A stretch of DNA of 64,000 nucleotides, taken from assembly GCA_021927905.1 (NCBI GenBank), contig BLLK01000025.1, positions 372,001-436,000 on the forward strand, in the 5' to 3' direction. This document shows positions 7,181 to 63,949 of the stretch, piece by piece. The notes beneath the pieces were generated by a model that did not search any database, was not told where the DNA came from, and worked only from the letters and a program-made list of their open reading frames with translations. The translations under genes were made by a program, and so were the position numbers. The DNA is from Chaetoceros tenuissimus. Taxonomy: Eukaryota; Bacillariophyta; Thalassiosirophyceae; Chaetocerotales; Chaetocerotaceae. Positions within the stretch are counted from its first letter, which is position 1; each line of letters opens with the position of its first letter.

Positions 7181-7254
7181 AATTTGCTCTGATTTTTGTG
7201 TCGTCTCGACTTGGTCGTGCTTTTGGAGATGACACTTAATGATGACGTCATACT

Positions 7255-8095
7255 TAACAGTGGTGTCACGTAAGAATACAAATTTTTTGTGAGTTTTTGC
7301 TGCAAAGTGAAAAATCTAATTTCTGTTCCAATCGACTAACAATAAAGTAGTAATACCTTTCTAAAAGATCTTTTTACGCTTGTTTCAAAACTGTACTCGA
7401 AAAAATCTCGGAAGCTTTCTGAGTCGAGAAATTAGCCTCCAAAGTAGCTTACTTCGGTTATCCCACAGTTTAATCGAAACCATATTTCTCGCTACAAAAT
7501 GAGTTGTCGATTCTGAGAAGTTACAAATATATTCTTGAAGTGTTTGTCTGAATGAATATGTAATTAGTTTAGCCATAGAATCATTATAATATTGATATCG
7601 CAATAGCATTCTCAACCATGTTTTCTTTGATTCTTTATCGTACGTACAGACTGTACCAACAATGACGCAATCTCCGTCATTGGTCTGTGAAATCGAGTGA
7701 ATTTTGAGACAATTTTGAATCATAAATCGACCATGTTCACTATACACTCAAATAAAGTATTCTACAGTCAACCTACAACTAATGGAAATACACGAATCTT
7801 TCGAAAACTATTCAAATGAACAGTATGTAACTTGTTGGAATCGACAACTCATTTTGTGGCAAGAAATATGGTTGCAATTCAACACCAAATATTGGAAAAA
7901 GTGACGATCTCGTCTTACGAAAAGCTTAATTTCTCGACTCAGAAAGCTTCCGAGATTTTTTCGAGTGCAGTTTTTAAACAAGCAGAAAAAGATCTTTTAG
8001 AAAGGTATTACTACTTTATTGTTAGTCGATTGGAACCGAAATTAGATTTTTCATTTGCAGCACAAAATCGGTATTCTTACGTGACACCGCTGTTA
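7255..8095. mobile_element. Element with about 270-bp terminal inverted repeats
   Basis: The left arm (7255 to about 7525) and right arm (about 7826 to 8095) are inverted copies with scattered differences. Both outer ends read TAACAG(T/C)GGTGTCACG inward. Shared internal blocks include the CTAACAATAAAGTAGTAATA segment (7337-7356 and its complement near 8005-8026). The core of about 300 bp is unique. It keeps a minus-strand reading frame of about 70 residues (around 7535-7747) with no family I recognise. No transposase is present, so this would be a non-autonomous DNA transposon or foldback element. A target-site duplication is not obvious. Confidence 0.6.
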
Positions 8096-8751
8096 ACAAT
8101 CTTGTTTCAAAGTGTCCAATTTGTTAAGCTAATTCTCCAGAGACACCTGAAAATAAAGTTTGCTTAATTATGTAGAAACTTCATTTCTGTCTGTTTTTTT
8201 ACTTTATTTGGCGGAATCAACGGATTCTCTGTCGTAAGAGCTTTCGAATGATGTGTCGGGTTTGTTTGTACCCCTCCAGGAAGGGGATGCTCCCTTCCAC
8301 CAATTTTCTAATGAACGGTAGAATTGTATGATTTTTCCAAATAATGATGTCTACAAATTTGACAACTAGTGTCTTTTTTACCCCCTTTTTTGACTTTTTT
8401 ATACCCTCGAAGAAAATAAGAACTAAAAGGCCGTCACACAATCGTCACTCACATTCTTTTGAATTTACCTGGATACGAACATCCTAATGATAACTAGTAT
8501 CTGGTTCTAAACTGCGTTTTTTTTTAAAAATCGATGCATCGATTATTCATTCATTGCGCTCTACTGCCATCTTCATCTATTCAATATTCACTAGAGAAAG
8601 AAGATCGTAGTCTATTTCAATCACCAGATCATACTGAAATGCTTGCTTTGGTTCATGAGATGAAGAAGGAAGAGTAGAGATATAAAAGTGAACATCAGCA
8701 ATAGTGGCTGGTCGAAGGAGTAAAAAATTTGAAAGAGATCAAATCATCAAA
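8096..8751. other. Intergenic region upstream of the silicon transporter
   Basis: No gene is seen. The region contains the self-complementary ATCGATGCATCGAT near 8531 and a TATA-like box close to the transporter start. Confidence 0.5.
8681..8688 (+). promoter_or_regulatory. Possible TATA box of the silicon transporter gene
   Basis: TATAAAAG lies 71 bases upstream of the chosen ATG at 8752. Its position suits a short 5' leader, but in an AT-rich genome such a match can occur by chance. Confidence 0.35.
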
Positions 8752-10173: not shown

Positions 10174-10411
10174 AATTTATTCGTTGAGATCCCCCACCTC
10201 TCAAGAACTTTAATTATTTACAATAAATAAGCTAGCTATTTTTCTGCCAACTTTACTTCATTTTCTCTAATCAGTCTATCCAAAAGCTGTATTCTGTCTT
10301 GTCATTCATGAATTGTGCGGACAGCCATTATAATTATACCCACAGTAGGCAACAAACTATGATGAAAATATTTGACACCTACTAGATTACTCTTTAATTT
10401 TATTTTTGTAT

Positions 10412-11389
10412 TTATTCCATAGCACCCTCTTCTAGTACGTTAATCATACTGTAAACCTTTCCACCTTCTCCCTTTTCAATCTTTCTTGCCAAGAATTTTA
10501 CAGCATCTGCAGTACCCTCTGCGTAAACGGTTCTTCCACTTACATTATGCTTCAATTGAAATTCTACAGTTCCATCAGGACTAGTCAAAGTATAAGTATG
10601 GAAAGCATGTCCATTAATGTATTCCTCCTTTACTCCAAAATCCTTGGATTCGTCATCGTCACGAATCATTTCAATATCATCATAAGTATATTTATCATCT
10701 CCACTCAAAACTTTCAAAGAATCAACAACAGCCTTTGCAGTTCCACTAGTATCTGCTTTGGTCTTTTGATGCGATTCTCTAACATGTAGTTTATAATCTC
10801 CAAACGCAGATGGAAATTTCTTTGCCAAGTCTTCTAATCCAGCTTGAAGTGCCACAATTTGTTTTCCCATATTTGGCGCAATAACTGCAGATGCATTAGA
10901 AGATTCCATATCCTTCATGAGTTGATCACGATCTCCACCAGTAGTTCCCATAACAAAAGGGATCTTTTGCTCTGCATAGAATTTTGCATTTGAGTTGACA
11001 GCAGATGGATGGTTATAATCAATTGCAAGAACTGCATCATCTCCGAATTTCGATCTAGTTTTTTCAAGTTGAGATAGAATTTCATCATTTGCGGAAGAAG
11101 GAATGAGACGTACGTTTGCATGGTTTCCAGTTACATCATCTACTACAGTGATGGACATTGGTTCCATATCTGGTCCAGTCATTGCAAATGGGGATAGAGA
11201 AAGTCCCTTACGAAGACATGCTTCTGCTGCTGCAGTTGCCATCGGTCCTGGCATACCGTTTACCATTACTTTGATATCGGAATCAGAAGCCATTTGAAGA
11301 CAAGTTGTTTGACGAGTTTGCATGGATGGTGCAAAAGCAGCTGCTTGCTGCAATGAGAATAGAACAGTAATTGGTGCCAAGAATTTCAT
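10412..11389 (-). CDS. dapB: 4-hydroxy-tetrahydrodipicolinate reductase, plastid-targeted
   Basis: The enzyme (325 aa) reduces dihydrodipicolinate with NAD(P)H in the diaminopimelate route to lysine. The N-terminus has a signal peptide (ITVLFSLQQAAAFAPS) ending in the AAAFAP motif of diatom plastid precursors, so it is expected in the plastid stroma. The nucleotide-binding segment is VMVNGMPGPMA. The catalytic region is ESHQKTKADTSGTAKA, with the His and Lys of the plant-type enzyme. The C-terminal domain ends in a typical beta-strand and helix pattern (FQLKHNVSGRTVYAEGT). I chose the ATG at 11389 because it puts the signal peptide at the very N-terminus; an in-frame ATG eight codons upstream is possible. 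It converges on the silicon transporter and diverges from the TIM gene. Confidence 0.9.
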   Translation of the reverse strand: MKFLAPITVLFSLQQAAAFAPSMQTRQTTCLQMASDSDIKVMVNGMPGPMATAAAEACLRKGLSLSPFAMTGPDMEPMSITVVDDVTGNHANVRLIPSSANDEILSQLEKTRSKFGDDAVLAIDYNHPSAVNSNAKFYAEQKIPFVMGTTGGDRDQLMKDMESSNASAVIAPNMGKQIVALQAGLEDLAKKFPSAFGDYKLHVRESHQKTKADTSGTAKAVVDSLKVLSGDDKYTYDDIEMIRDDDESKDFGVKEEYINGHAFHTYTLTSPDGTVEFQLKHNVSGRTVYAEGTADAVKFLARKIEKGEGGKVYSMINVLEEGAME

Positions 11390-11737
11390 TTTTGATGAGA
11401 ACAGTACAATCACAAGTTAATATGATACGAAGGTCAGTCTACTTGCTTGATGAAAAGATATTCAATTCATTCATCACTTTCACTTCTTCCCTTTGTTGGA
11501 AAAGATTTGTGTGGTGGACATCAGGAGACACCACAAAACTCCGACAGTTAACTACCGTTTGACATATAAAATGGGACTTAATCCCTACCCAACAAAAAAG
11601 AACACCTCATCTAACGGAAGAGATAGGTGGTGCCGGTAGTATCTTTTTTCTTTGGATACCAATACAACCAATCATCCGAACTGTGCCTACTGTACTCATT
11701 CATTAATTTCTATTACTCCCTCTAATACTACATCAAA
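11390..11737. promoter_or_regulatory. Divergent promoter region between dapB and TIM
   Basis: These 348 bases separate the start codons of two plastid-enzyme genes that point away from each other. A TATA-like TATAAA is at 11565-11570, on the TIM side. Shared regulation is an inference from layout only. Confidence 0.4.
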
Positions 11738-13071
11738 ATGAAGCTTTCTGTTGCAACCGTATTCGCTACCCTATCTTCTGTTTCTGCATTCGCTCCTTCT
11801 TCCATGGGGATTAGATCTGCTACCCAACTTGAGGCACGTAAGCCTTTCATCTCTGGAAACTGGAAGTTGAATCCACAGTAAGTATACTTTGCATGTTTAC
11901 TTGTTGAATGAGGAGAGAGAAGAAGATTCATTTTTCTGGATGGATACTGGAGTCGAACTATGATATTGCATAATGAAATGAAGAAAGATATCACGTACCG
12001 AGAAGTACATGTGACCCTAGAATTTTACTCACCATTTTCCTTTTTTTAGAACCAAGGAAGAGGCAGTAAAGCTTGCTGCAGATATCTCAGCAACTGTAAC
12101 TGATGATTCTCCAGATTCTGATGTTGCACTTTTTGTACCATATGTATTCATCGAGGCTGCTATGGCTTCTGCTGGTGATAGCCTTATGATTGGAGCTGAG
12201 GTAAGATACCCTTATTGTGTGTTCATTTTGATTGGATATTTGGTGTGAGAGTTTGGAGAAATGTTTGTAGCTGCGTTTGTCATGAATGAATCTGTTATGA
12301 AAACAAAAGATGAAGAAGAAAAGACTCTTATTGAAATTGGAAATGTAGCATAGTTCGTTGAATGGCATCGCACACTACAAGTCATAAAAGAGACATCCAA
12401 TGAAGTAATGTTCTTCCGAAATGAGATTTGAAAAAGTCGTCATGATATTATTACCATACATATCCCAATAATTCATCAAAACTTACATTCTATTTCAACT
12501 TTTTTAGGGAGTATGCCCAGAAATTAAGGGAGCATTCACCGGAGCAGTTTCCACTGCTATGCTTGACTCTGTTGGAGTGAAGTGGGCACTCGCTGGACAC
12601 TCCGAACGTCGTGTTATCTTTGGAGAATCTGACGAATACATCAACGGACAATGTCTTAAGCTTATTGAGCAGGGAATGAATGTTATGCTTTGTATTGGAG
12701 AATCCGAGTCAGAATACAACCAAGACCTTGCTGGAGCAGTATGTGCTGTACAACTTAAGAAGGGATTGGCTGGAATCTCCAAAGAAGATATGTCCAGAGT
12801 AGCAATTGCATACGAGCCAGTTTGGGCTATTGGAACTGGAAAGGTTGCTACTCCAGAAATTGCACAGAGTGTACACGCTACATGCCGTTCAATTTTGGCA
12901 GACATGTATGATCAAGAGACTGCAGATGCAACTAGAATTCTTTATGGAGGATCTGTAACACCAGAATCTGTAGATGATTTGATGAAGCAGGAGGATATTG
13001 ATGGAGCACTTGTTGGAGGAGCTTCCCTTGACGCTGAGAAGTTTGGACGTATCATCAACTTTCAAGTTTAA
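11738..13071 (+). CDS. TPI: Triosephosphate isomerase, plastid-targeted
   Basis: The enzyme interconverts glyceraldehyde 3-phosphate and dihydroxyacetone phosphate. Three exons: 11738-11877, 12050-12200 and 12508-13071, giving 284 aa. Both introns have GTAAG donors and pyrimidine-rich TTTTTTAG acceptors, and joining them preserves the frame. The first exon codes for a signal peptide ending SVSAFAPSS, the diatom plastid-import motif. Next comes the catalytic Lys in GNWKLN. In the third exon are the catalytic His (AGHSERR), the Glu in the family signature AYEPVWAIGTGK, and the phosphate-gripping loop ILYGGSV. Length after removing the presequence fits the usual 250 aa. Diatoms also carry a mitochondrial TIM-GAPDH fusion; this copy has no GAPDH part. 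Confidence 0.93.
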
Positions 13072-34893: not shown

Positions 34894-37605
34894 TTACTCT
34901 CCATTTAGTAGAGGCTCATCCTCTGTTGTTTCTTGTTCATTACTTTTTGCCTTCTCTACCCCCACCTTTATTTCAGGTTCCTCCTCTTCACCAAAAGATA
35001 TATCATCGTCATGAAGAGATGATATATGTCCCTCAAGCTGCATTTTTAATGTTTGCAATTCTTCTTTGAGACTCACATTTTGGGCTTGCAATTGTTTCAT
35101 ACCTTTCTGAAGCTCAACTGGAGTTAGAGACATTACATCTGTTGTAAGAATTGATGATCTCGAAGTCCACATGCTAACAGTTGTGAGACTATCAGAAGAA
35201 GCTTTTCTTCTATAAACTCCATGGAATTTTCGACCGCGAAGAGAAAGAGGCAGTACAGAGTACACAAATACCGACTCAGTAACCCCTCTCAAGTCCAAGC
35301 CTCCAACAATACCAACATGTGATTGTGATGTAACCTCCTCTGAAATAGCGTCATAAACCTCCTTTGATATCATGGTCTGACCACCAAACGCCGCATCTTC
35401 AATCCTGGCAGCCGTATTTACGACTGGGCCGTAATAATCGAATCCCTTGGATACCTTATCATGTAAGATTTGGATTTCCCCATCTTGTGCTTTACTCATA
35501 TCATGTTGATGTTGTCCCATATGGACTCCAATACGTACCCTTAGACCTTTGAACATCAATCGAGGCGGTTCTACTGTATTTGTTCGTCTTGGACGTGGAA
35601 AATAGGATATACAAGAAGAAGGCATGGTAGCTAGTTCCAGCGGCCAGTCCTGACTGATCAACATCTCTTGGATGTCATTCGCTAGCATCACTGCTTTGTT
35701 AGGACAGTCTGTCGCAATCATGAATGAGTCTCCTACTGTCTTGACTTCATACGCTTCGTACTTATCAATCAAAGAACGAATAACATTGTTATGAATGTCA
35801 AGTGATTTCTGCATGGCATGCTTATTTGTTTCCCATAAAGCTGTAGAGTCTTCAATATCTGTAAAGATAATTGCAACTGTTCCCGCTTTTGGAGCATTTC
35901 TCACATCTCGCGTGTGGTATTTGATGGTATGACGCTGTTTAGCTACAACAATGGTAAGAAGTATTGCTAATACTCCGATAGGAATGGTAACACTAAGAAT
36001 AATTCTTCTCAGTCTTTGTAATCTCTGCCTTGCTTCTTCCAAACCATCATTAGGATCGATGTAAGGGGGCAAACCGAGATAATCTCTGTAAAAGTCACGC
36101 TGTTGCTTCAATCCAAAAGTTTCAGTGACTCCATTCCAAGCATCAGTAATAATTTTCGCAGTTTCCCCAACTGAAGTTTCACCTTTCCACATTTTGATTA
36201 GATGTGGCATAGTTCCTGCCTCTTGATACTTCTCTGAACCGAGAACACGAAGATCTAACACATAATTCTTATTCAAGAAACTCATTTCAGTGGTTTCTTT
36301 GAGCATTGGAAGCTGACGAGATTCCCAACCAAAATCCAAGAACGCCTTGGCCTCTCTTGTAGAATTATTCGCCAGCGAAGTGGTGTGACGTAAACGAAGA
36401 GGATCAAAGAAACTGGATGGATGAGCAACGTCCCAGAACGAAGCACCAGGATCTGACAAATACAAAGCAAATGCAAGAGCGGCCTCTTGTTTTTCCTGAG
36501 ACTTTCTACTATTGACTGCATAAGCCATCCCTCCAGAAGCAAGAAACGGCGCATAGTTCACACCGTCCTCAGAGGCGTAAGGACATCTCTCATCTTCTCG
36601 ACATTTTTTACCAGGCAATGGCGCAAGATTCAATTTTCCCGAGAAACCGTTCGCTTCTTGAGCACTAATCATCGATTTAATTGGGCCAGGATAGTTGTAA
36701 TACAATACACACTGTCCATTATTAAATTGAGCCCTAGTTTCTTGCCACATCTGTCCCTTTTTTTCACCACTAGTCTGATTGTTAAAAGTCGAATGTTGAA
36801 CGAGAAAGTCGATTGTCTCAAGTGCCTCTAAAAACTCTGGAGAATTTGATACTGGGTCCATCGATTCAGTATCAAAAAATACTCCTTGTGACTTTCCACC
36901 TGTTTGAAGAAATGGAGATGCCAAAGCCCAAAATATTTTATCAGCAATATCATTTGCAGCTGTCGCAAAACAATTTCCATATACAGGTTGGCCTTTGTCG
37001 TTGTACGTTTTGTTTTTCTTATAGTAGTCAAGAATTTGCTTCACATCATCCCAGCTCCTTGGAGTTGGTAGGCCTTTGTCCTCCACAAGGTCTTTTCTGT
37101 ACAGCATATAAATCACATCTCCGTCTAAAGGCACGGCATAGACCTTTTCTTTATAAGAAGCTACTCCCTGTCGGATCGCAGGCATGATGTCAAACCAATC
37201 TTCACCAACTGCATTCAAAATATCATCTGAAATGTCTCTAAACCCTCCAAGACTCGCAAAATATGGAACCCAGTTTCCAAAGGTTCCATATAAATCAATA
37301 AATCCCTCTTCTTTCTTCACATCTTGAAGAATATCATCATACCAAGTAGCAGTGGTAGTTGGTGACTTTTTCATAATCGCCCCAGTTAGCTGTTCAAAAT
37401 TTCTCATCTTTTCACTCATGAAACAATCTTGAAATGTCAAATATTTTACAGTGATTTCCACGCCCATGTGTTTGCTTCTCATGGACTCTCGAACCGGTGT
37501 CGATTCTAGAGCATATGGATCTACAATGTTACAGACTTGTGCTTCCGCATAGGAACGAAGCAACATTCCACATTGTAGTAACCTCACGAGTCCTTTCATT
37601 TTCAT
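34894..37605 (-). CDS. Receptor-type adenylate cyclase with solute-binding-protein ectodomain (copy 1)
   Basis: A single-exon protein of 903 aa. A signal peptide is followed by an ectodomain (residues about 30-530) resembling bacterial extracellular solute-binding proteins of the MalE type: FEQLTGA, DLYGTFGNWVPYFASLGG, YAVPLDGDVIYMLYRKDLVE, and PTPRSWDDVKQILDYY. One membrane span is near 535-555 (SVTIPIGVLAILLTIVVAKQ). The cytoplasmic class III cyclase domain begins near 575: metal-binding Asp in FTDIEDSTALWE and VGDSFMIA, and the Asn and Arg for transition-state binding in GPVVNTAARIE. Lys in EVKTVGD and Asp in GFDYYG match the ATP-selecting pair, so cAMP is the expected product. A short coiled coil (LQAQNVSLKEELQTLKMQLE) and an acidic tail follow. 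I chose the ATG at 37605; the frame is open farther upstream only to a TTG. Confidence 0.85.
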   Translation of the reverse strand: MKMKGLVRLLQCGMLLRSYAEAQVCNIVDPYALESTPVRESMRSKHMGVEITVKYLTFQDCFMSEKMRNFEQLTGAIMKKSPTTTATWYDDILQDVKKEEGFIDLYGTFGNWVPYFASLGGFRDISDDILNAVGEDWFDIMPAIRQGVASYKEKVYAVPLDGDVIYMLYRKDLVEDKGLPTPRSWDDVKQILDYYKKNKTYNDKGQPVYGNCFATAANDIADKIFWALASPFLQTGGKSQGVFFDTESMDPVSNSPEFLEALETIDFLVQHSTFNNQTSGEKKGQMWQETRAQFNNGQCVLYYNYPGPIKSMISAQEANGFSGKLNLAPLPGKKCREDERCPYASEDGVNYAPFLASGGMAYAVNSRKSQEKQEAALAFALYLSDPGASFWDVAHPSSFFDPLRLRHTTSLANNSTREAKAFLDFGWESRQLPMLKETTEMSFLNKNYVLDLRVLGSEKYQEAGTMPHLIKMWKGETSVGETAKIITDAWNGVTETFGLKQQRDFYRDYLGLPPYIDPNDGLEEARQRLQRLRRIILSVTIPIGVLAILLTIVVAKQRHTIKYHTRDVRNAPKAGTVAIIFTDIEDSTALWETNKHAMQKSLDIHNNVIRSLIDKYEAYEVKTVGDSFMIATDCPNKAVMLANDIQEMLISQDWPLELATMPSSCISYFPRPRRTNTVEPPRLMFKGLRVRIGVHMGQHQHDMSKAQDGEIQILHDKVSKGFDYYGPVVNTAARIEDAAFGGQTMISKEVYDAISEEVTSQSHVGIVGGLDLRGVTESVFVYSVLPLSLRGRKFHGVYRRKASSDSLTTVSMWTSRSSILTTDVMSLTPVELQKGMKQLQAQNVSLKEELQTLKMQLEGHISSLHDDDISFGEEEEPEIKVGVEKAKSNEQETTEDEPLLNGE

Positions 37606-38260
37606 AGCTTTAGAGGAATACAGAGAAACCAACTTTAATGAATGGATGTGAGATGGGTCATCTAAAATATTTTGAAAGTGACATATTGGTGGACTTACCG
37701 ATTACTTGCTTTCTTCAAGCGCTTTTTCTTAGTAAAAAAGTGAGTGCAATACTTTAGAGTAACTGGGAATTGATGTAAAATCCGATCGTAAACTCGTCTC
37801 GTAGACACAAAAGCTATTGCTTGAAAGCAGATAAAAAAGTATGGAACGCATAAATTGAACTCAATGTTCCTGCTAGGTTACTAGTCTTCTCTCTTTTCTC
37901 AGAGTTCACCTTGTCCTTGAAATGTTCTCCTCTTGAGAACATGCTGACGTGTAGCAATAGTGAAAATGGACATTTTGAAATACGTACTACGTACGTTTCT
38001 GTACATGAACGAACATGCAAGACCCCTCCTTGGTATTCATAATTAGAGTGTCGGGAGTCGGGAGTAATGAAACCAAAAGCCAAACAAAATAATCAAACCC
38101 TCACTTCTGTGCTTACTGACTGGCTGGTGGTACTACAAAAGCAAGTTCTCCAATGGATACAGTGATAAAATCTTTATAGTAACTTCCAAATATCATTTAA
38201 ATTGAATATGCGATCAGCGTCTTGGTTAGACCGACGCCATTGACAAGTCGAAATGGAGAA
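37606..38260. other. Intergenic region, no gene seen
   Basis: Upstream region of receptor cyclase copy 1. It includes TACGTACTACGTACGT near 37981-37996, a self-complementary simple repeat. No other feature was found. Confidence 0.45.
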
Positions 38261-38524
38261 ATGACAATAAATGACTTTTTCTTCGTTGGCTGGCTGCTAT
38301 TATTTTTTACAATTTTGCCAGGAGTTCTGGTGATTCTATCAGCAAAACACCATGACGTTAAGTCAAAGTGGCTAGCAGAGGAAAGAAGCACGAAAATCAC
38401 AAGAAAAATGGAAGGAAAAAATTTAATCGAAACAATTAGCTATCATCTACTTTGGTTGACGATGAACTTTCGTCCCCTTCTTGGCAGAAAGGCTCATCTA
38501 GTAGGCCATCAAAAGTTCAAATAG
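38261..38524 (+). CDS. Possible small membrane protein
   Basis: A short frame of 87 aa starting MTINDFFFVGWLL. Residues 5-28 are strongly hydrophobic (FFFVGWLLLFFTILPGVLVI) and the rest is basic and polar, as in a one-span membrane protein. There is no recognised family and no second line of support. It could equally be a chance frame or an exon of a longer unrecognised gene. Confidence 0.3.
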   Translation: MTINDFFFVGWLLLFFTILPGVLVILSAKHHDVKSKWLAEERSTKITRKMEGKNLIETISYHLLWLTMNFRPLLGRKAHLVGHQKFK

Positions 38525-39324
38525 AAACTAAATATAAGCAAAGAATTGCTAGCTAAAAAATATCACCGTACAATTAATTAAATATTACAAGCTCAAAAAA
38601 ATCCCTCAAGTCGAATGTTGCAAAGCTAGAGAGCAAGTTTTGTTGCTAGTATCGAATAGCGAGCGAACAAAGATCTTTTCTGAAATTCTTTTGTGATGAT
38701 GAGACATGGAAATGATGGAAGTGCATACTCCTACATGTATTACTACACAGTTACCAATACTAGGTACTAATAGTAATGAGTAGGTTGCTACTCAAAGAAA
38801 AAACGGAAATTATTTGTTTCAGAAAGAATCATCAGTGAAGATCTAAGAAAACCTTCCCCTTATCTATGACCCTCCGTAAAAAGGTTTTTAGTATGATTGA
38901 AATATGACCTGATTCAAACAAACAGATTTGATGTAGAAATTGTGTGCAAATAATCTCTCTTTACAGGGCACCAATCCTGCAAATTTACGGAGAATCGGAA
39001 GAAATAGTAAAAACTGATTAGTTTCAAATGCCAATGTCTATGACCTGTCAGGTGAAGGCAAACGTCTTTTCTATTTTACTGAGGCAATCACATACTCCCC
39101 CGCAAAAGGATTTTGTGAATGTTCTTTTCAGTTCAAATATATCTTTTGCAGATGAAATAATAGAAAACAACGGGAAATCGGAACAAAATGTCATCGAGGT
39201 GTCATATCAGGAATGCAAGATGAGCGCATGCAAGTGATTTCGAACCTTTTCCAACCCTCAAAGTCTGCACATAAAAACAAAAAGTGCAAACTTGAATTCC
39301 ATCGCCAAAGCTACAGTGACTACT
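38525..39324. other. Intergenic region, no gene seen
   Basis: About 800 AT-rich bases between the small ORF and the secreted protein gene. Frames here are short. No repeats, RNAs or signals were recognised. Confidence 0.45.
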
Positions 39325-40578
39325 ATGAAGATCGTATGTAACTCTCTCATCATCGCATCTCTCTACGCAAGCGTAGATGCAGGATGTAAGTACTACTATT
39401 CTACTAGCTCAGGCTGTCTTGCTGATTTCATTGACTTGTTATCATCATTGCTCTAACACGCACTTTGCTTCTTATCATGATTCGTTAGCCCTCCGTAACC
39501 TCAAGGGGAAGAATCCAACATCAATCTATGCTGGAACATCTTATGATGCTTTCTGTTCTCCTTTCTTTGAACTTGAAGGCGATGATGCATACGTTTCGGC
39601 AACATCTCCTTGGGCTACAGGAGCACTTAACGAACTCGTGAAAGGAGAAGCCACAGATGAGGAGATTGCAACTGCTTTGGAGGAATTGAATGTCTGTGGT
39701 GGCAATGGTGGTGGTGGTGGTACTGGAAACTCGGTTGCTTGTTCTACAGCTGCAACGGAAGACGATTGCAATGCTCTTAAAGCCACAAACGTCTGTAGTT
39801 GGTCTGGTAACCCTAAATCTTGTAGTGGAAGTGGAGATCCAAAGCCAGCAAGCTATGAAGCTACATTTGCAGATTCAGACATTACTTGCTCCGGTGTACG
39901 TGACGTATATGTCGAAACTGCTCATGGAGCCACTTTTGCAGATGGGTCTATCTGTGAAGATGATTCAGGATGTACTCTTGGAGACGGCAATGTTGTTGCA
40001 AAAGGCGATGCGATCCTAGATGGAAGCACTTGCGAAAATACTAGTACTGACCCAGATACTCTCGTAGTTACTGACACTCCTTGTTATAGCAAGCACCAAG
40101 AGGACTATGATGGATACTACATGTGCTACAATCCAAACTCTCCTCATTTGTACCCTCGTACAATCTGTCAGCCAAATGACGAGGAACCAGCAGCGAGTAA
40201 GTTATCACAGACAGAGCTTGATTCAAATTTGGATATTTTCTTCTCGATATTTGTATCTCACAACGATTCGATTCTACTTCTTCTTGTTTTATTTTTGTAG
40301 TGATTGATGGTTCTACTTTTGCCTCCTGTGGCTGGTGCTGCCAGACTGCAGCTGGAGACAACCAGTGGACCAATGATGCTTGTGATCACGAGGATGGCTT
40401 TGATTGTGACTCGGACGAGAATGAAGTAAATGATGGTTATTTGGTTCAAGTTGCGAACGGCAAAAATCAGAAGAAAGATGGTCCTGTACCACCAACCGCA
40501 GGAAAATGCGTTACTCATGATGAAATTGCTGATACTCTTAATCACTTCTGGGGATCCTATTGCAACAACTCCATCTAA
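39325..40578 (+). CDS. Secreted Cys-rich protein of unknown function
   Basis: Three exons, 39325-39385, 39489-40196 and 40301-40578, give 348 aa. Donors are GTAAGT in both introns; acceptors are TTAG and TGTAG. The short first exon codes for a clean signal peptide (MKIVCNSLIIASLYASVDAG). The mature part is acidic and Cys-rich, with a Gly-rich linker (CGGNGGGGGTGNS) separating a first module from two Cys-containing modules, the last including ASCGWCCQTAAGDNQW. No family is recognised. Secretion and disulfide bonding are inferred. It lies between the two receptor cyclases, but nothing in the sequence links it to them. Confidence 0.7.
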
Positions 40579-40926
40579 TTCCCTCCCTACAAGATTATTC
40601 TGCATACCGAAGGCTCTTAGATATTTAGCTTAGTGGAAGAGAAAGTACGTAGAAAACATCTGAAATTGATATCGGAAATTGATGGGTTTAAATTCATCGA
40701 GAATACATTCACACAAATCGAAACATAATAAAAACAAAAAGTGATAAAAATTTCCTAAGGTACATACGAGTATGATCATAAATTTAAAAAGACAAAAACA
40801 ATCATGACCAATCAATGATATTCAAAGTTTCCGGAGATGATAATCTATTGCACTTTTTCTATTTTAGCTAGGTAGTATCTTTGGTGTTTGGCTTATTCAT
40901 CAAAATCCCTCTTCATGATCACGTTT
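40579..40926. other. Intergenic region between convergent genes, no feature seen
   Basis: Holds the 3' ends of the secreted protein and of the minus-strand transporter genes. Nothing else recognised. Confidence 0.45.
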
Positions 40927-43143
40927 CTAAACAATGTTGCTTTCATTCTCTCTCGATATCCTCTCGAGACGATGATAAACAAGGGGAAACGCTTGACTCA
41001 AACTCTGATGATTTTGCGCGAAACAAACATACACAGCCTTGATACTCGCTTTCAGAGGTTCCATCATTGTATAAACAATGATGTACACCATGATAAAGGT
41101 GATGACCATAATTTCACAAATAATCATATGATCATTTTCAGGCGTTGCAGATTGTCCAATAAAAATAACAATGAGACCGGCTATAGCTTTTGAAATCGAA
41201 GCACACATGTGGACAGAAATGTCTTCATGTATTGTAGATTCAATACCAGAAGCATTGATGAGATCTAAGACGTCGTTGGCAGCTCTAGTGTAACTTTTGT
41301 AATATGCAGCAACATGGCAAAGCCCCAAGTCATTATGATTCCTTACAAAAGTTTTTGATTTGATTCGAAAGGACTGCCATTTTAGTCGCAGTCTTTCCCT
41401 GAAAGTTCCCCGTTGGCTATTGGAATCATCACCAATATTCATACCTTGATAAGTACGGAAACGCCGGTTGGCGAAACGGGATGATGAGGCTAAAATCCAA
41501 TCCACAGATCGAACAAATGACCACAAAACATTCGCTGCTGCTCCCATCAAAGCGCAATGTACAATTGATCCAAATGAAATTCCAAGTGCAGTTTTCAGGA
41601 ATGCCTTCACGGTGGGAGAATTGGTGTTGGAAAGTCTCCCGAAAGTAGCATCATTCTCGTCCAAGTATTGCTTTTCATTTGAGTCAGACATGATGGCGCC
41701 CATCATGATACCATCGTCGTCACCGTAGTCATCATCCATACCCTCATCAAACTCTATTCCCATACTGTATGCGGATGCATCTACATCTCTATATGCATCT
41801 GATATAGACCCGTTCTCATTCAAAATAGCAGACTGCATTGTCTCTTTTCTGGCAACACTACCACTTCGATCTTGTCTTCTCATGATCTCCATGTCTTCCA
41901 TGAGCGCACTTTGCTGAGCAAACCAAGATGTAACTCCACCACAAGCTAAGTAACTGAGAAAGCGTATCTGGACACTTGCAGCCCAATATCCAAGAAAACA
42001 GACCACAGATACCCAAAAGTATTGTCCAAAGCCTGTATGATATGACATTGCTGCTTCCCATGCCTTCCTAATCCCCACCAACACTAACCACTGGAAGAAA
42101 AGAGTAACCACAACAACTCGGTAAAAACTCTGACAGCGACATGACCGGGAAAGAATATCCAAGCTAGCATTCACCAACATTCTATAAAAAGCTCGCTCTC
42201 CATCATTCACACCTTCTCGTAGAAAACTAGACCCGCTTCTAAAAATCTTTGCAAAGAGATAAATATCTCGAAGAGTCAGGTATGCCAATGCAATCACAAT
42301 TAAATCGTAAAATAAACCGTGTACATTCAAATTGTAGAATGTCAAAGTCAACAAAGGAAGTATAAAGCACGTTGCCATATTCGCAATAATCAATAGTTGC
42401 GATGCTAAATATCTTTGATCTTCACCCTCTCCTGCACCTTTTGATAGGTAGAATATTCTCGCAATGAAAATAGCCAAGATTGTCGCAAAAAACACAGGAA
42501 TGTTGGAAGAGTGGTAGACAGTGTGTGACTTTGAATGAAAGAGTGATGGTAAAAAAAGCATAGGAGCTACAATAAGAAAGGTCGTTGTCCATTTTGCATC
42601 CCTTGGTCGTCGTGGTGGTCTTGGTCGATATGTTGGCTGATTTGTGTACGAAATATTGTTTTCTCCGTGTATAGCATTCACAGTAAAGCTCCTATTGTTT
42701 GCCTCTTGTTGGCCATTACCATTACTTTGCATTGTTTCTTGACTGTATTGACTATCGCCAGTGTTTGAATCTAAAGTCTCATTTAACGATTGATTCAAGT
42801 TCTCACTAGCTTCCTGGTTCGTTTCATGTTGAAGGTTATTAGTTGTAGTCATAGACGATTCAAGCATAGGCCCAGGCGTAGATGCTATATTTGGCAATTC
42901 TACAGATTTCAATCTTTTCAGATCAGGAGTCTGAAGCGTTTGCCTTAACGTTAAATCCGGAGTCGGTGCAATGCCCTGTGCCTCTTCTAGATCCAACGTG
43001 GCATCTGCAAAGAAGGGAACATCTGAATGCGAGTCATCGTCTTCATAGTCTCCATCACTGCTGAATTCATTGCTATTTTCATCGTTTGAAACGTATTCAT
43101 TGAGATCCATTGGCTCTTCCGGTATGCTGTTGAAAGATGACAT
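40927..43143 (-). CDS. Choline-transporter-like (SLC44/PNS1-type) membrane protein
   Basis: A single-exon protein of 738 aa with an acidic, disordered N-terminus of about 185 residues and nine to ten hydrophobic segments after it. The last third resembles SLC44 proteins: GISFGSIVHCALMGAAANVL corresponds to the conserved GSICFGS-type helix, followed by HVAAYYKSYTRAANDVLDLI and a final segment near EPLKASIKAVYVCFAQN. A loop of about 110 acidic residues interrupts the membrane part (DEGMDDDYGDDDG). Animal members carry choline; the substrate here is unknown. I chose the ATG at 43143 (MSSFNSIPEEP); the frame continues upstream only to a TTG. Confidence 0.6.
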   Translation of the reverse strand: MSSFNSIPEEPMDLNEYVSNDENSNEFSSDGDYEDDDSHSDVPFFADATLDLEEAQGIAPTPDLTLRQTLQTPDLKRLKSVELPNIASTPGPMLESSMTTTNNLQHETNQEASENLNQSLNETLDSNTGDSQYSQETMQSNGNGQQEANNRSFTVNAIHGENNISYTNQPTYRPRPPRRPRDAKWTTTFLIVAPMLFLPSLFHSKSHTVYHSSNIPVFFATILAIFIARIFYLSKGAGEGEDQRYLASQLLIIANMATCFILPLLTLTFYNLNVHGLFYDLIVIALAYLTLRDIYLFAKIFRSGSSFLREGVNDGERAFYRMLVNASLDILSRSCRCQSFYRVVVVTLFFQWLVLVGIRKAWEAAMSYHTGFGQYFWVSVVCFLGYWAASVQIRFLSYLACGGVTSWFAQQSALMEDMEIMRRQDRSGSVARKETMQSAILNENGSISDAYRDVDASAYSMGIEFDEGMDDDYGDDDGIMMGAIMSDSNEKQYLDENDATFGRLSNTNSPTVKAFLKTALGISFGSIVHCALMGAAANVLWSFVRSVDWILASSSRFANRRFRTYQGMNIGDDSNSQRGTFRERLRLKWQSFRIKSKTFVRNHNDLGLCHVAAYYKSYTRAANDVLDLINASGIESTIHEDISVHMCASISKAIAGLIVIFIGQSATPENDHMIICEIMVITFIMVYIIVYTMMEPLKASIKAVYVCFAQNHQSLSQAFPLVYHRLERISRENESNIV

Positions 43144-44001
43144 AATATATGTATAATACTTATGTGTCTCCAATTGTTTCCGTCTATTTCACTTATGAAC
43201 CACCGAGATGAATGTTACTTTTACTTGACTCTTTGAATTGTAGTGACTCTGCGGGTCAATTTATTGAGAAAAGCAACGTTCAATAATTATCAAACTAATG
43301 AATACAGTGGACAAGCTATCTATGTCCCTTTTCAAGTTTCTCCGCCTTGTATATTCGAAGGTACTCTGGCACGAAGAATCTTTCGAGCCAAGAGAATATT
43401 TATTTTGAAATGCTCCTATGCTTGGTTCTATTATGTAGTGAAATGGAATGTTTATAGGGTGAACAAACTGAGTGTAGCAAAGATGCTATGGTACTTCACA
43501 TAAAGTTGTGCTTTGGAAGAACTGTTTGGTAAGTAAGTATCAACAAGCGATACCAACGATCCAGCCGCCAAAATCAATGTCCGACTTATAATTTCGGATC
43601 CGCTTCTAACTGTACACCTCCGGGTCTTGGATGTTGGAATCGGAATCACGAGTTACACGTGTAGTCATCTTTGATCTGTCCAGGATATTTTTGGCTTTTC
43701 TACTGCGTAAGTATCTACAATGATTCGCAGATGGTGACAGCAAGTTCAACAAGAAATGACAAAGAAGATACGTACAAACGTACATACCCCGTTCTACAAG
43801 GGACAGACAGTGTTTTACGAGTCGAGTCGAGTATCTGCACATGTTCAACAAGGTTCAACATCAATCAATCGTCCCATTCCTCTTTATCACACCACATGCC
43901 ATCTAGCCATTACGGTTCTCTATTATCTTGTGTTCACATAGGTTCTCCAATACCCACTTCTAATTTGATAAACGACCTGAAACTATTGCAAGAAATTCAT
44001 A
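43144..44001. other. Divergent intergenic region, no gene seen
   Basis: About 860 bases between the starts of the SLC44-like gene and receptor cyclase copy 2. Two short frames on the plus strand have no recognisable features. Promoters for both genes are expected here. Confidence 0.45.
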
Positions 44002-46813
44002 ATGTGGTCTAGGAGTACCTCTTCGTTCCTCCTCAACATACTTGTGTTGTGGTCGACAACAAAGATATCAAAGACTCTCCCTAGAGTTTTCGCCGAACAT
44101 GATAGCACACACATTATAGATCCCTATGCCGATGAATCCACTCCGCTGCGAGAATCTATGAGAGGTAGACATACTGGAGTTACTCTTAAAGTTCTAAGTC
44201 TTGACTTTGCTGAAAATTTCACGGTGGAAAAATTTCGTAACTTTGAAAAGCTTACCGGAGTAACTATTGAACCAGTCCGAGTTTCACAAACTACATGGTA
44301 CGGTGGTGTTCTTGAGGATATCAAGCAGGATAATCGCTTCATTGACCTATATGGGACTTTTGGAAATTGGGTTCCTGAATTTGCTAGTTTAGGTGGATTG
44401 AAAGATATATCCGAGGAGGTACTTGAAAACTCGATTGGTTTAGACTGGCTTGATATCATGCCTGCTGTGAGACTTGGAGCTGCTTCTTACAAAAAGAGTA
44501 TTTATGCCGTGCCTTTAGATGGAGATGTGATTTATATGCTTTATAGAAAAGACCTAGTGGAGGATGTAGGTCTACCAAGTCCAAGGAGCTGGGATGATGT
44601 GAAGCAAATTCTTGACTACTATGAAAAAAATACAATTTATGACAAAAATGGATACCCTGTTTATGGAAATTGCTTTTCCACTAAAGAGAACGATATTGCC
44701 AATCATATGTTCTGGTCTATTGCTTCCTCGTACCTTCAGACTGCTGGAACAGCACAAGGAGTATTCTTTGATAGTGAAACAATGGACCCAGTTTCAACAA
44801 GACCAGAGTTCTTGGATGTACTGAACGAGTATGATTATCTCGTAAAGCACTCACCATTCCAAAATAATACAGAAGAAGGTGTGGACTGGATTTATTCGAG
44901 ACAATTGTTTAACGAAGGAGGATGTGTACTTTTTTATAACTTTCCAGGTCCAATCAAATCAATGATTTACGAACAAGAACAAAATGGCTTCGCTGGCAAC
45001 TTGAATCTAGCCCCTCTACCCGGTAAGAAATGCACAGAGGACGAGAGTTGTCCATATGTCTCAGACGATGGTGTGAACCATGCTCCTTTTCTAGCAGGCG
45101 GAGGATTTGCATATGCTGTTAATAGCAAAGTTTCCAAAGCGAAGCAGGACGCCGCACTTGATTTTGCACTGTATTTGTCAGACCCATCTGTATCGTTTTG
45201 GGATGTTGCAAATCCATTCAGTTTCCTTGATCCTCTTCGTTTACGTCATACTACATCACTTGGAAACAACTCCACGAAAGAGGCACAGGCTTTCATGGAT
45301 TTTGGGTGGGAAGCACGTCAATTGAGTAAGTGACCAATATTGATTTTATGTATTTTTTTACTGAGCGAAACTAATGTATTTTTTTTTAATAGGTCAATTG
45401 AAAGAGACTACAGAGGCAAGTTTCAAGAGTCAAAATTACGTTTTAGATCTTCGGAACCTAGGCGCGGACGAATACCTTCAAAGTGGAACAGTACCATTTC
45501 TAATCAAAATGTGGCAAAATAAAACTACTGCAGAAGAAACAGCAGATGCAATCACTAAGAGATGGCATATCATTACTGAAAAGTACGGACTTTCACAACA
45601 GCGTGACTTTTATCGAGATGTTCTAGGATTACCTCCGTATGTGGAAAATGACGACGAGCTTCGAGCAGCTAGGCAGAGATTGATAAGATTGCGCAATATC
45701 ATCCTTAGTGTCACGATTCCTATTGGAGTTCTTGCATTTATCCTTTGTATTATCGTTGCTAAGCAGCGCCACACAATTAAATACCACACACGTGATGTCG
45801 AAAATGCACCTAAGTCTGGACCAATTGCATTGATCTTTACCGATATAGAAGACTCTACAGCTTTATGGGAAACCAACAAACATGCTATGCAAAAATCTCT
45901 TGACATTCATCACAATGTCATTCGTTCTTTGATTGATAAGTACAAAGCATATGAAGTCAAGACAGTAGGAGATTCCTTTATGATCGCCACGAATAGTGCT
46001 GATAAAGCAGTTCAGCTCGCAAATGATATTCAGGAACATTTGATCCTTCAGGATTGGCCGCTAGAACTAGCTACCATGCCTTCTTCTTGTATATCTTACT
46101 TTCCTCGCCCAAGACGGATGAGTACCGCCTGTGAACCTAGATTAATGTTCAAAGGTGTGAGAGTAAGAATTGGAGTTCATATTGGACACTATGAATTTGG
46201 GCAATCAGAAGACGGTGAGATCCAAGTACTCCACGATAAGGTCGTAAAGGGTTTTGATTATTATGGCCCAGTTGTCAACACAGCAGCAAGAATCGAAGAC
46301 GCAGCATTTGGAGGTCAGACCATGATTTCAAAGGACGTTTTCGATGAACTCTCACTCGAAGTCAAGACGGCATGCTCAATTAATGAAATTGGAGACCTTA
46401 GCCTTCGAGGTGTCAAAGATCAAGTGTTTGTCTACTCTGTGCTGCCTGAGAGTCTGAAAGGTAGGAGATTCCATGGCGTTTTTAGAAGGAAATCTTCTAG
46501 TGACAGCATCACGAGCTATGCAAATGATAAACTCTCTTTCAAGAATGTGGATATTATGACTTTAACACCTGTGGAACTTCAAAGAGGAATGAAGCAAATG
46601 CAAATCATGATCAGAGTATTAGAAGAAAAAGTTAAAGACTACGAGGAGAAGGAAAGAAGTGCTCAAGAGGTTGTTAAAGATGCAAATGTTAAAGATGCAA
46701 ACCAAAGTTCCTCATCCATCCAGAGTGACGATGATATCTCGTATGGAGGTGTTGATGATGACGACGAAGTTGAAGTCAAACCTTTGGTGAAATTTGATAT
46801 GGATTTGTCTTAA
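44002..46813 (+). CDS. Receptor-type adenylate cyclase with solute-binding-protein ectodomain (copy 2)
   Basis: A paralogue of the gene at 34894-37605, alignable along its whole length. Exons 44002-45325 and 45393-46813 give 914 aa; the intron (donor GTAAGT, acceptor TTTAATAG) falls where copy 1 reads straight through. The ectodomain has DLYGTFGNWVPEFASLGG, YAVPLDGDVIYMLYRKDLVE and SPRSWDDVKQILDYY. One membrane span is near 548-567. The cyclase domain keeps both metal-binding Asp residues (FTDIEDS, VGDSFMIA), the Lys/Asp pair expected for ATP, and GPVVNTAARIED. The C-terminus has a short coiled coil and an acidic tail (DDDISYGGVDDDDEVEV). Like copy 1, it is predicted to sit in the plasma membrane and make cAMP on ligand binding; the ligand is unknown. 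Confidence 0.85.
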
Positions 46814-59277: not shown

Positions 59278-62200
59278 TTATAATATAAGGGTAACGACTA
59301 TAATCAATGAGTTATACAATAGAATGGATGCCGGAGAGGTAGATGGGCTATCACTACTATCAGATGGATTCTCACTTGGTTGAGAAGACGAACTCAACGA
59401 AGGCTTCTCACTGCTACCATGAGACGGCAACTCACTTGGACGAGATGATAGTCCGATTGAAGGAGCTTTACTACTATCAGATGTTTTCTCACTTGGTTGA
59501 GAAGACGAACTCAACGAAGGTTTGTTAGTGCTATGAGACGGTAATTCACTTGGACGAGATGAAGGTCCAGCTGAATGAACTTCGCTAAGTCTGAAGGAGG
59601 GGGGTTCTGAAGGATCTGTAACTGGAACAAAGGAAGGTGCAGAATTTGGATTTGTGGAGGTAGCTGTAGTATCGTCAACAAGGACTATAGGGGCAACAGA
59701 GCCATTGAATTCCCAATTCTGCAGGTCTTGCTCTTGCTGACGACCATTTACCCATGTGATTTGTATGCTAACCGGCTTCAGGTCTTTTCCTAGCCCAAAA
59801 TATACACGGGGATCATCATAGCCACTTTTATCTCCATTACGTGAATATTCTTGAAAATGCTTACGAATCGATCCATCAATTCTTTCAGTGGTAAGAATCA
59901 ATGTTGTACCTATTCCATAAGCATCATTATTGATGCCATTGCCCTTTAATTCAAAAACAATAAACTCATTTGTCTTGTCATTGTTGTTTGGTTTGTTAAG
60001 AAGAAATCTGTTTGGTTTGTTAAGAAGAAATCTCACATAACCAAATGCATTTGCATACACAATATCCATTAAGCCATCATTGTTCATATCGACAATTGTC
60101 AATCCTACAGCGCCTATCATGAGGGACTTCCCGGATTGATACTTAAAACATGCGTTTCTAACATGCTTAAATTCAAAATTTTCACAATTGGCTCTGGAAG
60201 AATCAAAGAGGTCGTCAAACTTTGGATATGCCAGAGACAATTTAGAAATGTCTCCCATCGAATCATTCCTACCACATGAAGGGTGAAGTGTCCATTTTTT
60301 GGAATCAACACTTTCTTGGGTATAGAATACAAAGGCTCCAGTTGCCTTACACATGATGAAGATTTCTTGTTCACTGTCATTATTGAAATCGGTGACTCTA
60401 AGGCTCTTTGCAGAGAGACAATAGTCTGGAAGTATGAGTTCAACACTTTGATATTTGTTTGTTATTGGTAAAGTACCTCGGGGTCTATCGGAAGAATAGT
60501 AAATTACTAATTTTGTCTGATATAAAAAGATATGGGCTGCTAGCAAGTCATTGTCAAAGTCACCAGATGCAATTGCTAGTGCATTGCATCCATATTGCTC
60601 ATCAAAGGCCCCATGCGGACAACAAGGTGGCTGGTAATCGGAATCGGCATAAATATTGAAGTATTGTGGGGAAATTTCCTGCATTTTCTTGCTGTCCTGG
60701 TTGAAGCGATAGCCTGCCAAAGTGCCAACTGGTCTTGTGCTGCAAAATTCTTTAATTTCTTTGCCAAATGGACCATACTTTTCATAGGCAGGATCAGTAT
60801 TTGGACCTTTACGCTGGGGGAAGCAAAATGCTCGATGCATAATTACTTCATTTGCAATCCCATCACCATTAATATCAGTAAGGATTACAGCTCTCGTAAA
60901 TTCTTCCATGCTTTTGTGCTCAAACCACGTACGATTTCCTTGATTCAATAATAGGATCCCTGGTTCTATTTCATTGTCAGTCCGCCTCGATTGGACAATG
61001 AATATATCTAACAAACCATCGCCATTTGCATCTAAGAAGAAGATCAGACAAATCAATAAAAATAATAGAGTCAAAATATATCCAAACTCCGCCGAAGATG
61101 AAGGGTTGACGACCCCTTCCATTTCGACCATGCAATCCTGCATCAAATGCCTGTTTCCTCCCTCCTCGAAAGACCAAATTGTTGTCGTTGATCTCGCCGA
61201 AGAAGAGGAGATTATCTTGCATTTTTGGATTTCGTACCAGTTCACCTCTATTGCCGCCTTGTACAATGTAGAGGTCTAAAATTCCATCACCATCTAAGTC
61301 CATCAATTGCTCCCCATGTGAGTCAATGAACCCGATATTATTTCCGTAAAAAGAGGCATATTCGTCAACTTCATCTTCAATCACAATACGATTGTCAATG
61401 GGCTGTAACTGTATTGTTCCATCTTCTAGGACTCGACTCAATGCTATTTCGAAACGCCCGTCCAAAGTTCCATTGGAATTTACTATAGTATGACCATGCA
61501 TGGAGTTAAAATAATCAAGTACACCATCACCGTCGATATCACGAAAGAGAGGAGCTCTTTCATGTCCATACGAAGAACCTGAATGATCAAGCTGGTACCA
61601 ATAGGATGGGCTGCCGCTGAACACAGTCTCAGTGATATCCTCAAAATATGCAAAACTGCATTGAGATTTGCTGGGTGGTGAGCAAAATTGACAACCGGAA
61701 CAATTATGTCTATTGCAATCCTCTTCCATACAGAATGGTTTGCAAGTCTTTCCTAACCATACAAAATCACATTCCAATGACGAGCACGTGAATTCATTAT
61801 CTTGGCAATATTGCAAACCGCAATTTAAACCGTTTGAACATTGTTCACCAAGTCCAGATATCTCGTCTTGTTCAAGAGATCGACCAAAGACTGAAACATC
61901 ATCAATCTGTCCATCGTAGGGCTCCTTTAGTGTGTCATGATTTAGAGAATCACCGCCATAACCAAATCCACCAATGCTCAATCTTCCTGCTGTAAAAAAG
62001 AATATGTACTCTTCAGTCAAATCTACGTTATGCGTCAATCTCACAAAATTGCCGTCTACAAATAGTTTCATGTCAGAAGGGCGGCAGCTTTTGAATGGCA
62101 TTGTGACTACAATATTATGCCAGAAGTTATCTGCAAGAGGTTTCACTGTAGGAGCCCAAAGGGATTTCGCTCCATTCCTCAAGTATATTGTAGGTATTCC

Positions 62201-63949
62201 TTGATCTAGTGTGAATAAGAAATAATCTTTGTTACCATGGCTTCCTCCCCAATATGAGCCATAGAATGCCAACACCATTTCTTTTTCGATATGCTCTGTT
62301 CTAAACCACAAAGAAATAGAGAAAGCCTGGCCACCATGAAGAGGACCTGTACCAAAAATTGCAACTCTAGAGTCTGGATGAAATTGAGCCGAGCTGCTGT
62401 CCCTATACCTGCCTTGTGACAGAGTTACATTTCCTACTTGGGCATCATACTGTGCATCAAAGATTCCATTGTTGCGAAAACTGTCCGTGCACATGATTCC
62501 ATCAATTGAAAGACTCTTAGGTATCAATTCGTTCTCACCTCGAAGACCAAGTACCTGTCTTTCGTCAATAGGCTTTAACTCTTCAAAATCAAAATAAATC
62601 AAAGCCTTCTCCCAATTATCATGAAGAAGCAATTCACCTTCTGATTCTATGCTTCTTGTTCCAGCTGATTTATCAACAGTAAGGGATCCATCTTTCACGT
62701 AATTGTTATTGAATTTAACTGCACCTACGTCAATTTCATTGTAGTGATCTATCTGTACTTTGTCCTCGATAACATTGACCACAAGAAATCCACCAAAGCT
62801 ATTGGCTCTAGAAATTATTTGGATGGTATTTGAGTCTTGCTCCATACTTTTTGTAACAGTATTGGAATGAACATCACCACCAAGGTAGAAGTCGACGTCA
62901 TACTTTATCATCAATTTCCAGAATGCACTTTCTTCGGCCAAATCAAAGAATTGGCCAGATGTCTTCACTGCGCGAACTGGCTGAAGAATTGGTACATGTC
63001 CCGCCACAAATACGTGTGCAATTGTTGGATCACCTCGGGACGAGCTTAAAACGTCTTCAAACCAAGCTAGATGCTCATCAATAACTGTACATGTATGAGT
63101 TCCTTCCCCGCCCGTACCATATTTTCTATCAAAAAAGTTTGAGCTACCATCGCCGACGAGCTGAAAGACATCCACTGCTACAAAGACGATATTTCGAAAT
63201 CTGAAAGCATAGGAAGAGCCTGAAAGTAGTAAAATATAAATTATTAATATTCCAATAGATCAACAATGCGCAAGACATCGTACCTTCAAAAGTAGTTCCA
63301 AATGGCCTTGCGCTAGCACCTGCGATGTCATCACTATAATCATACAAGTTTTTGTCACCTTTGAAGTATCCATCGGCAAAAGATTGTCTATAAGCAGGAA
63401 TATTTGCAACCTTCTTTCCAACTCGAAATCCTTCATTACCTGCCAGTAAAGGAAAGAATATGTGCAATTATTGAGATTGCAATACTTTTGCTTTACTACT
63501 TTGAAAGATATCGAATGTAATTACATACCTCCAAGTTCATGGTCTCCTACTACCGGCAAAAGATGTTCGAATCCAGCTTCCAATACCATCTCCCGTGTCC
63601 TATTATGAGCATTGACTCCTGCCATGTAAACTGCATCATATGTAGACATGTTTCCACCAAGCTTCTTTACAAACTCTAAATCATTTCGGATACGTCCAAA
63701 ACTCACAGAATCTCCAATTGTGATTAGAAATTTGGACTGACCGTAGTTTTGATAAATATTCTTCAAAATGGATAAACGAGGTTTCCAATGCTTGGATGAC
63801 TTGTATCCGTCACTTTGAAAAGCAAAAGGAGTGAAACCATGTTCATCCGCCATTACCACAAAAGAGAAGGGTTCAGTTGATGAATTCACGACTGACAAAC
63901 AGAATGTTACAAAAATAGAAAGAAACATAGCTTTGATCAACATTTCCAT
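59278..63949 (-). CDS. Large secreted protein: phosphoesterase, LamG-like, FG-GAP and ASPIC/UnbV domains
   Basis: Four exons, 63529-63949, 63284-63439, 61093-63219 and 59278-61031, give 1,485 aa. A signal peptide (MFLSIFVTFCLSVVNS) leads into a calcineurin-like phosphoesterase: VVMADEHGF, ITIGDSVSFG, VVGDHELGG, VAGHVPIL and LGGDVHSNT. A LamG/concanavalin-like domain follows (SISLWFRTEH to GQIDDVSVFGRSL), then a Cys-rich knot, then at least five FG-GAP/VCBS repeats with calcium-type loops (DIDGDGVLDY, DLDGDGILDLYIVQ, DANGDGLLDIF, DINGDG, DMNNDGLMDIVY), then an ASPIC/UnbV domain (FELKGNGINNDAYGIGTT). The tail is Pro/Ser-rich and ends in a hydrophobic stretch (ASILLYNSLIIVVTLIL), perhaps a GPI signal or anchor. 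The third intron (61032-61092) needs a GC donor to give the motif PFIFDANGDG. A cell-surface role is inferred. Confidence 0.78.
59987..60033 (-). repeat. In-frame 24-bp tandem duplication
   Basis: TTTGGTTTGTTAAGAAGAAA and the next four bases occur twice in a row inside the large secreted-protein gene, adding a second copy of the peptide RFLLNKPN without breaking the frame. Confidence 0.85.

Follow-up and report, generated by a model that had tools for sequence, protein, structure and literature searches.

Predicted single-pass receptor adenylate cyclases with a MalE-type ectodomain in the diatom Chaetoceros tenuissimus

Known receptor cyclases and the Chaetoceros genes

Animal receptor guanylyl cyclases have a type-I ANF ectodomain, a kinase-homology domain and a GTP-specific cyclase. 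The kinetoplastid receptor cyclases (GRESAG4/ESAG4, TcAC) consist of a flytrap-type ectodomain, one transmembrane helix and a C-terminal class III cyclase, and we take their ectodomains to be of the type-I PBP group, unlike those studied here. One or two periplasmic-binding/VFT domains per ectodomain are described in the accessible text of two sources (PMC6027212, PMC10470820), the second of which gives 17 annotated receptor cyclase genes in T. cruzi. The available part of the first also describes animal receptors of the ANP receptor type as a flytrap ectodomain, a single span and a cyclase (PMC6027212). SBP_bac_1 domains have been reported as receptor ectodomains in eight sequences of class C GPCRs from Allomyces macrogynus, again according to part of the source (PMC3251606). 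Flytrap receptor cyclases in kinetoplastids and SBP_bac_1 ectodomains on fungal class C GPCRs are thus already known.

We analysed a 64,000-nt stretch of Chaetoceros tenuissimus DNA (GCA_021927905.1, contig BLLK01000025.1, positions 372,001-436,000 of the forward strand), hereafter the window, within which all positions are counted. Two of its genes, A and B, encode proteins with the same domain order as the kinetoplastid and ANP-type animal receptors, but their ectodomain is one type-II domain of the MalE family, and two such genes were seen in the host genome (41.03 Mb in 68 contigs searched) compared with the 17 of T. cruzi. Whereas the Allomyces receptors are fungal seven-helix proteins, A and B are predicted single-pass cyclases of a diatom. 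CUT1 MalE-family solute-binding proteins (SBPs) share the fold and full-length homology with the ectodomain, including the C-terminal W490...T494...G498...Q502, but in A and B this domain forms one polypeptide with a membrane helix and a cyclase. The first-pass annotation knew of no description of this combination in diatoms. Among the best-ranked literature matches (the top 12-20 per search), judged by title and abstract in a search covering neither subscription journals nor preprints, we likewise found no account of it. The novelty does not extend to SBP_bac_1 as a receptor ectodomain, which the accessible part of the Allomyces paper already places on GPCRs (PMC3251606).

The window encodes a silicon transporter (8704-10170; E = 3.7e-193), indicating diatom nuclear DNA, and ordinary eukaryotic genes (RPN6, EFG1, DEAD-box genes) surround A and B. 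The two genes are divergent, with A on the minus and B on the plus strand, and are separated by a gene without a Pfam match (39377-40300, plus strand) and a choline-transporter-like gene (40927-43173, minus strand). Gene A (34894-37605, minus strand) is intronless and encodes a complete predicted receptor adenylate cyclase of 903 residues. Its open reading frame (34894-37632) starts with TTG; the first ATG has its A at 37605, and the stop codon lies at 34894-34896. The type-II SBP ectodomain (residues ~26-512; 36070-37530, minus strand) is followed by a transmembrane helix detected by hydropathy (residues ~531-557; 35935-36015, minus strand), which the predicted model draws as a single helix from 518 to 557, and by the class III adenylate cyclase domain (residues ~571-794; 35224-35895, minus strand). 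In gene B, exon 1 (44002-45325, plus strand) covers a hydrophobic segment at the N terminus together with most of the ectodomain, and exon 2 (45393-46813, plus strand) encodes the ectodomain end, the transmembrane helix, the cyclase domain and an acidic tail. The 67-nt intron between them (45326-45392, plus strand) is of GT-AG type (GTAAGT...TAG), and its removal restores both the frame and colinearity with A (RQLSQLKETTE in B, RQLPMLKETTE in A), giving a product of 914 residues. A perfect 15-bp duplication lies within the acidic tail of B, at 46672-46701.

Pfam matches place both domains in both proteins: SBP_bac_1 scored 46.7 bits in A (E = 5.8e-12) and 51.8 bits in B (E = 1.5e-13), against a curated cut-off of 26, and Guanylate_cyc scored 87.5 bits (E = 1.1e-24) and 84.4 bits (E = 9.5e-24), against 21.9. 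Each protein has one hydrophobic helix, with 19-residue windows above 1.6 starting at 531-539 in A and 538-552 in B. The first-pass annotation had proposed two paralogues of this design within 34894-46813, each with a signal peptide. Both genes are real and have the proposed ectodomain, span and cyclase, but B is split into two exons rather than being a single reading frame, and the interval also covers the two intervening genes. By hydropathy, B has a good signal-peptide-like segment at its N terminus (TSSFLLNILVL, mean 1.9), and the counterpart in A is weaker (LVRLLQCGMLL, 1.75). The two proteins are 66% identical, and over 883 aligned codons their NG86 dN/dS is ~0.14 with dS near saturation, a divergence that excludes a recent copying artefact. 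Taken separately, the ectodomain (dN/dS 0.12) and the cyclase (0.13), again with dS near saturation, are both under purifying selection, indicating constraint on both halves.

The catalytic positions of the cyclase are intact. D583, K622 and D626 were kept in all 23 alignment rows (A and P0001-P0022), D723 and N730 in 22, the remaining row having a gap, and R734 in 22, the exception being P0007, which is broken there; B carries the same motifs as A. With roles that we assume to correspond to those in mammalian cyclases, these six residues comprise both metal aspartates, the transition-state N/R and the adenine-type K/D, in a domain recognised by the class III profile. The two base-reading positions hold K and D, a pair that suits ATP rather than GTP, and ATP is thus the expected substrate. 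Amongst solved structures, kinetoplastid receptor cyclases were the closest relatives of the A cyclase (37% and 34% identity), in agreement with the likeness noted at first reading: T. brucei GRESAG 4.3 (1fx4) was the best PDB match (E = 3.1e-37) and GRESAG 4.1 followed (E = 1.3e-36). The alignment to GRESAG is full-length for the domain. At the site of the extra GRESAG subdomain the A cyclase also has an insertion, of different sequence and length, and both groups have APK just before the first strand. In the host genome, searched exon by exon, the next-best match to A reached 51 bits, compared with 132 bits for 1fx4.

Rfam and tRNA scans of the 64-kb window returned no match. Long tandem arrays occupy positions 1-5831 (a 90/183-bp unit at 1-2811; at 3978-5831, units of 142 to 453 bp) and stand out from the remaining window by their elevated GC content and strong GC skew. 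At 59281-63175 on the minus strand, overlapping frames encode FG-GAP, UnbV_ASPIC and Laminin-G/concanavalin-like domains and are perhaps exons of one extracellular gene.

Recurrence of the architecture and a HET-like form

A protein search with the receptor, in which scoring was limited to the 7995 candidates with the most shared words, gave 23 matches. Both domains were present in 19, three were cyclase-bearing fragments (P0020-P0022) and one (P0023) was a stand-alone SBP from a bacterial family. At least one further named diatom has the architecture, P0016 being a protein of Asterionellopsis glacialis (taxid 33640); the remaining 18 proteins with both domains, which include the transcriptome entries P0002 and P0017, are probably also from diatoms, judging by their sequences. 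The receptor family thus extends beyond one genome, as first proposed. A and P0001 (93% identical) were sisters, with B next (support 100/99), and a partial ectodomain (P0155) comes from Chaetoceros neogracile. All 19 lack a source tag of NCBI, nr or UniRef, although an ectodomain fragment (P0147) does carry NCBI, and the family may therefore be absent from the model diatoms represented in those sources.

Two further proteins, P0148 (897 residues) and P0153 (903 residues), have an ectodomain 38% identical to that of A, followed by a membrane span recognised by eye. Their cytoplasmic part did not match the cyclase profile and resembled HET weakly (23.5 bits in P0153, above the cut-off of 22.5, and 18.5 in P0148, below it), and the HET-like region bears an SHQW motif. 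They were sister to all cyclase-type forms used in the trees. Since the ectodomain also occurs on a HET-like domain, the sensor looks portable between output domains, and this second setting of the diatom-type ectodomain appears to be new. In the host genome no HET-like form was found, all three matches to P0153 being pieces of A and B. PADLOC returned nothing for P0148 or P0153, and the predicted structure of P0148 (mean pLDDT 38.5) was unusable.

The ectodomain and its bacterial relatives

Pfam, phmmer, hhalign, Foldseek and VIA all placed the ectodomain in the solute-binding superfamily, within the MalE sugar-SBP group and with a two-lobe type-II fold, bearing out the MalE-type assignment made at first reading. 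The candidate pocket positions are intact. D161-G162-D163 was kept in all 21 diatom-type ectodomains (A, B, 17 cyclase-type and two HET-type) and in 6/6 near ABC SBPs, as were W112, R404, N447, D451 and W490; in 4rya, the residue aligned with D163 is the acid of YAE. Amongst the rows compared, Q234 was common only to the ectodomains and the ABC clade. The pair C212/C299 was considered as a derived mark joining these two groups but was dropped: it occurs in 5/5 generic outgroup SBPs and, as a retained trait, has no evidential weight.

Bacterial genomes were sampled in sets of 274, 398 and 337, with matches in 3, 25 and 3 respectively, and a nearer donor may thus lie outside the sample. A profile of the diatom-type ectodomain found L035, L072 and L073, which are closer than the kinase-linked SBPs described below; tblastn with the A ectodomain found L069, on a Paraburkholderia plasmid; and the L035 protein as query then found L085 and L086. 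L035, L069, L072 and L073 were the best bacterial matches to A among the rows compared (E = 1e-39 to 1e-44 in this small set). The six form one clade (99/98), and MalF/MalG-type permease genes adjoin the SBP gene in five, the sixth (L072) ending at a contig edge. The A and B ectodomains share only 25-28% identity with the closest of the bacterial SBPs found. As the first-pass annotation had supposed for the recruited binding protein, these nearest relatives are ABC-importer SBPs; that they belong to MalFGK-type sugar importers, two of them beside 6-deoxyhexose genes, appears to be new.

A bacterial family of SBPs of ~500 residues can also be aligned with the ectodomain over its full length (hhalign E = 6e-27). 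In 5/5 loci read whole (L016, L017, L018, L019 and L021; eight were scanned, L020 and L022 being left out), the next gene encodes a histidine kinase (HisKA, HATPase_c by Pfam); L015, whose contig ends just past the SBP gene, is outside this count. At these five loci the kinases carry HAMP/PAS or CHASE5, no permeases adjoin, and the SBPs themselves bear names of sugar-importer binding proteins. They are probably periplasmic sensors of two-component systems. At another bacterial locus, L036, SBP_bac_1 is fused to a ribose-type Peripla_BP_4 in one protein (6580-9027) and a GGDEF-EAL protein follows (9046-12150), a pair that reads as a putative double binding-protein sensor.

Proposed mechanism, alternative explanations and candidate ligand

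On these data A and B are probably diatom single-pass receptor adenylate cyclases, a judgement that concerns the receptor-cyclase core and not the ligand. Binding of a ligand, perhaps carbohydrate-like, would close the two lobes of an extracellular MalE-type Venus-flytrap domain at the cell surface, and closure would be transmitted through the single helix to the cytoplasmic cyclase. Two cyclase domains, from a homodimer or an A/B heterodimer, would then meet head-to-tail and make cAMP. Dimerisation of the catalytic domain is required for activation of trypanosome cyclases, according to the accessible part of the source (PMC6027212). Such a design would give a diatom a direct route from a nutrient in the surrounding water to a signal within the cell. 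Diatom sensing of dissolved organic molecules is poorly known, and A and B offer a concrete, if predicted, receptor family with direct second-messenger output.

The bacterial descent of the SBP domain could raise the suspicion that its fusion to a cyclase is an artefact of contamination, mis-joined assembly or chance. We discount this almost completely: there are two copies, one with a GT-AG intron, amid RPN6, EFG1 and a silicon transporter, and recurrence of the fusion in independent sources, transcriptome collections included, excludes it. An origin of the ectodomain from the histidine-kinase-linked SBPs, and hence from a part already used in signalling, was made attractive by their end-to-end alignment and signalling neighbourhoods. 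It is very improbable, as an AU test rejected the grouping of ectodomains with the kinase-linked clade (p-AU = 1.2e-5) and did not reject that with the ABC-importer clade (p-AU = 0.23), values that serve as guides because the two groups were defined with the result of a previous tree in view; BLAST scores and the shared Q234 also favour the ABC clade. In the free rooted tree, from which out_L055, out_L061, out_L045, out_L049, L076 and six diatom-type rows were omitted, the ectodomains stood beside all bacterial clades (89/86) and not inside the importer clade, a placement subject to a long-branch warning. Descent from the SBP of a bacterial sugar ABC importer, on the importer side of the family, is most likely from these comparisons, and the breadth of the bacterial SBP family suggests transfer from bacteria to the alga. 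On this reading, a bacterial transport protein was put to new use in eukaryotes, as the sensor part of receptors with more than one kind of output domain.

The long branch that separates the ectodomains from bacterial SBPs, with 25-28% identity, means that specificity may have changed, and it would also suit an ectodomain that had lost ligand binding and become a scaffold for dimerisation or stress sensing, the cyclase being switched by pH, osmotic or membrane stress. This follows a proposal for trypanosomes: their receptor cyclases, for which no natural ligand is known, react to stress from acid, osmotic change or proteolysis, as far as the available text states (PMC6027212). We consider such a scaffold unlikely, because the DGD motif and the five other candidate pocket residues are invariant across the ectodomains and near ABC SBPs, and because dN/dS is no higher in the ectodomain than in the cyclase (with dS close to saturation). 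There is a more substantial, though still minority, chance that the receptor binds something other than a sugar, such as a polyol, phosphodiester, amino compound or bacterial signal; this overlaps with the receptor-cyclase reading and differs in ligand only. The SBP_bac_1 family is chemically diverse in its ligands, and UgpB with glycerophosphocholine (6r1b) was among the structural matches to the ectodomain. In the best 50 of each of two lists, however, these matches were mostly carbohydrate-binding proteins or MBP fusions, and the nearest bacterial relatives lie within carbohydrate importer operons.

For a sugar-binding receptor cyclase, a 6-deoxyhexose such as L-fucose is our best single guess at the ligand, from the neighbourhoods of two bacterial relatives only. 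Catabolic neighbours of the L-fucose or L-rhamnose type were found at two of the four near-clade loci with full flanks, L035 and L072 ending at contig edges. L069 adjoins an L-fuconate dehydratase gene. The neighbours of L086 include an SDR, a 2,4-didehydro-3-deoxy-L-rhamnonate-hydrolase-like protein, a dehydratase, a fuconolactonase-like protein and an aldo/keto-reductase-like frame. Every NCBIfam match listed at this locus falls under its curated cut-off: 450 bits against 500 for the hydrolase, 389 against 731 for the dehydratase (galactarate dehydratase model), 195 against 400 for the fuconolactonase and 45 against 550 for the reductase (YdjG model). Together we take these neighbours to resemble a non-phosphorylative 6-deoxyhexose route. 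The full flanks of L073 and L085 gave no match to any L086 or L069 catabolic gene tested, L085 being searched by tblastn with twelve query proteins.

Against this guess, the L-fucose SBP known from Sinorhizobium falls into a different class (CUT2, class I), according to part of the source (PMC3454389). Several diatoms secrete a sulfated polysaccharide containing fucose, as the accessible text of another paper reports (PMC13063451), which makes a fucose ligand ecologically sensible without proving it. A fuller scenario is speculative and, taken whole, rather doubtful: some diatoms may have captured the SBP of a bacterial 6-deoxyhexose importer and turned it into a modular surface sugar receptor, with adenylate cyclase as output in diatoms and a HET-like domain elsewhere, by which Chaetoceros-type diatoms would read L-fucose or fragments of exopolysaccharide that contains fucose, their own or their neighbours', as cAMP. 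The ectodomain can be produced and tested by itself, and the list of candidate ligands is short.

More distant relatives of the SBP, of FucU type, are all encoded in operons for carbohydrate importers. RbsD/FucU genes occur in those on four annotated rhizobial or Phyllobacterium plasmids; L071 and L077 are without annotation. At L075, RbsD/FucU and a ribokinase-like frame, read by eye, adjoin the SBP gene, and a relative in the roseobacter Ponticoccus has a ribokinase and an aldehyde dehydrogenase adjoining.
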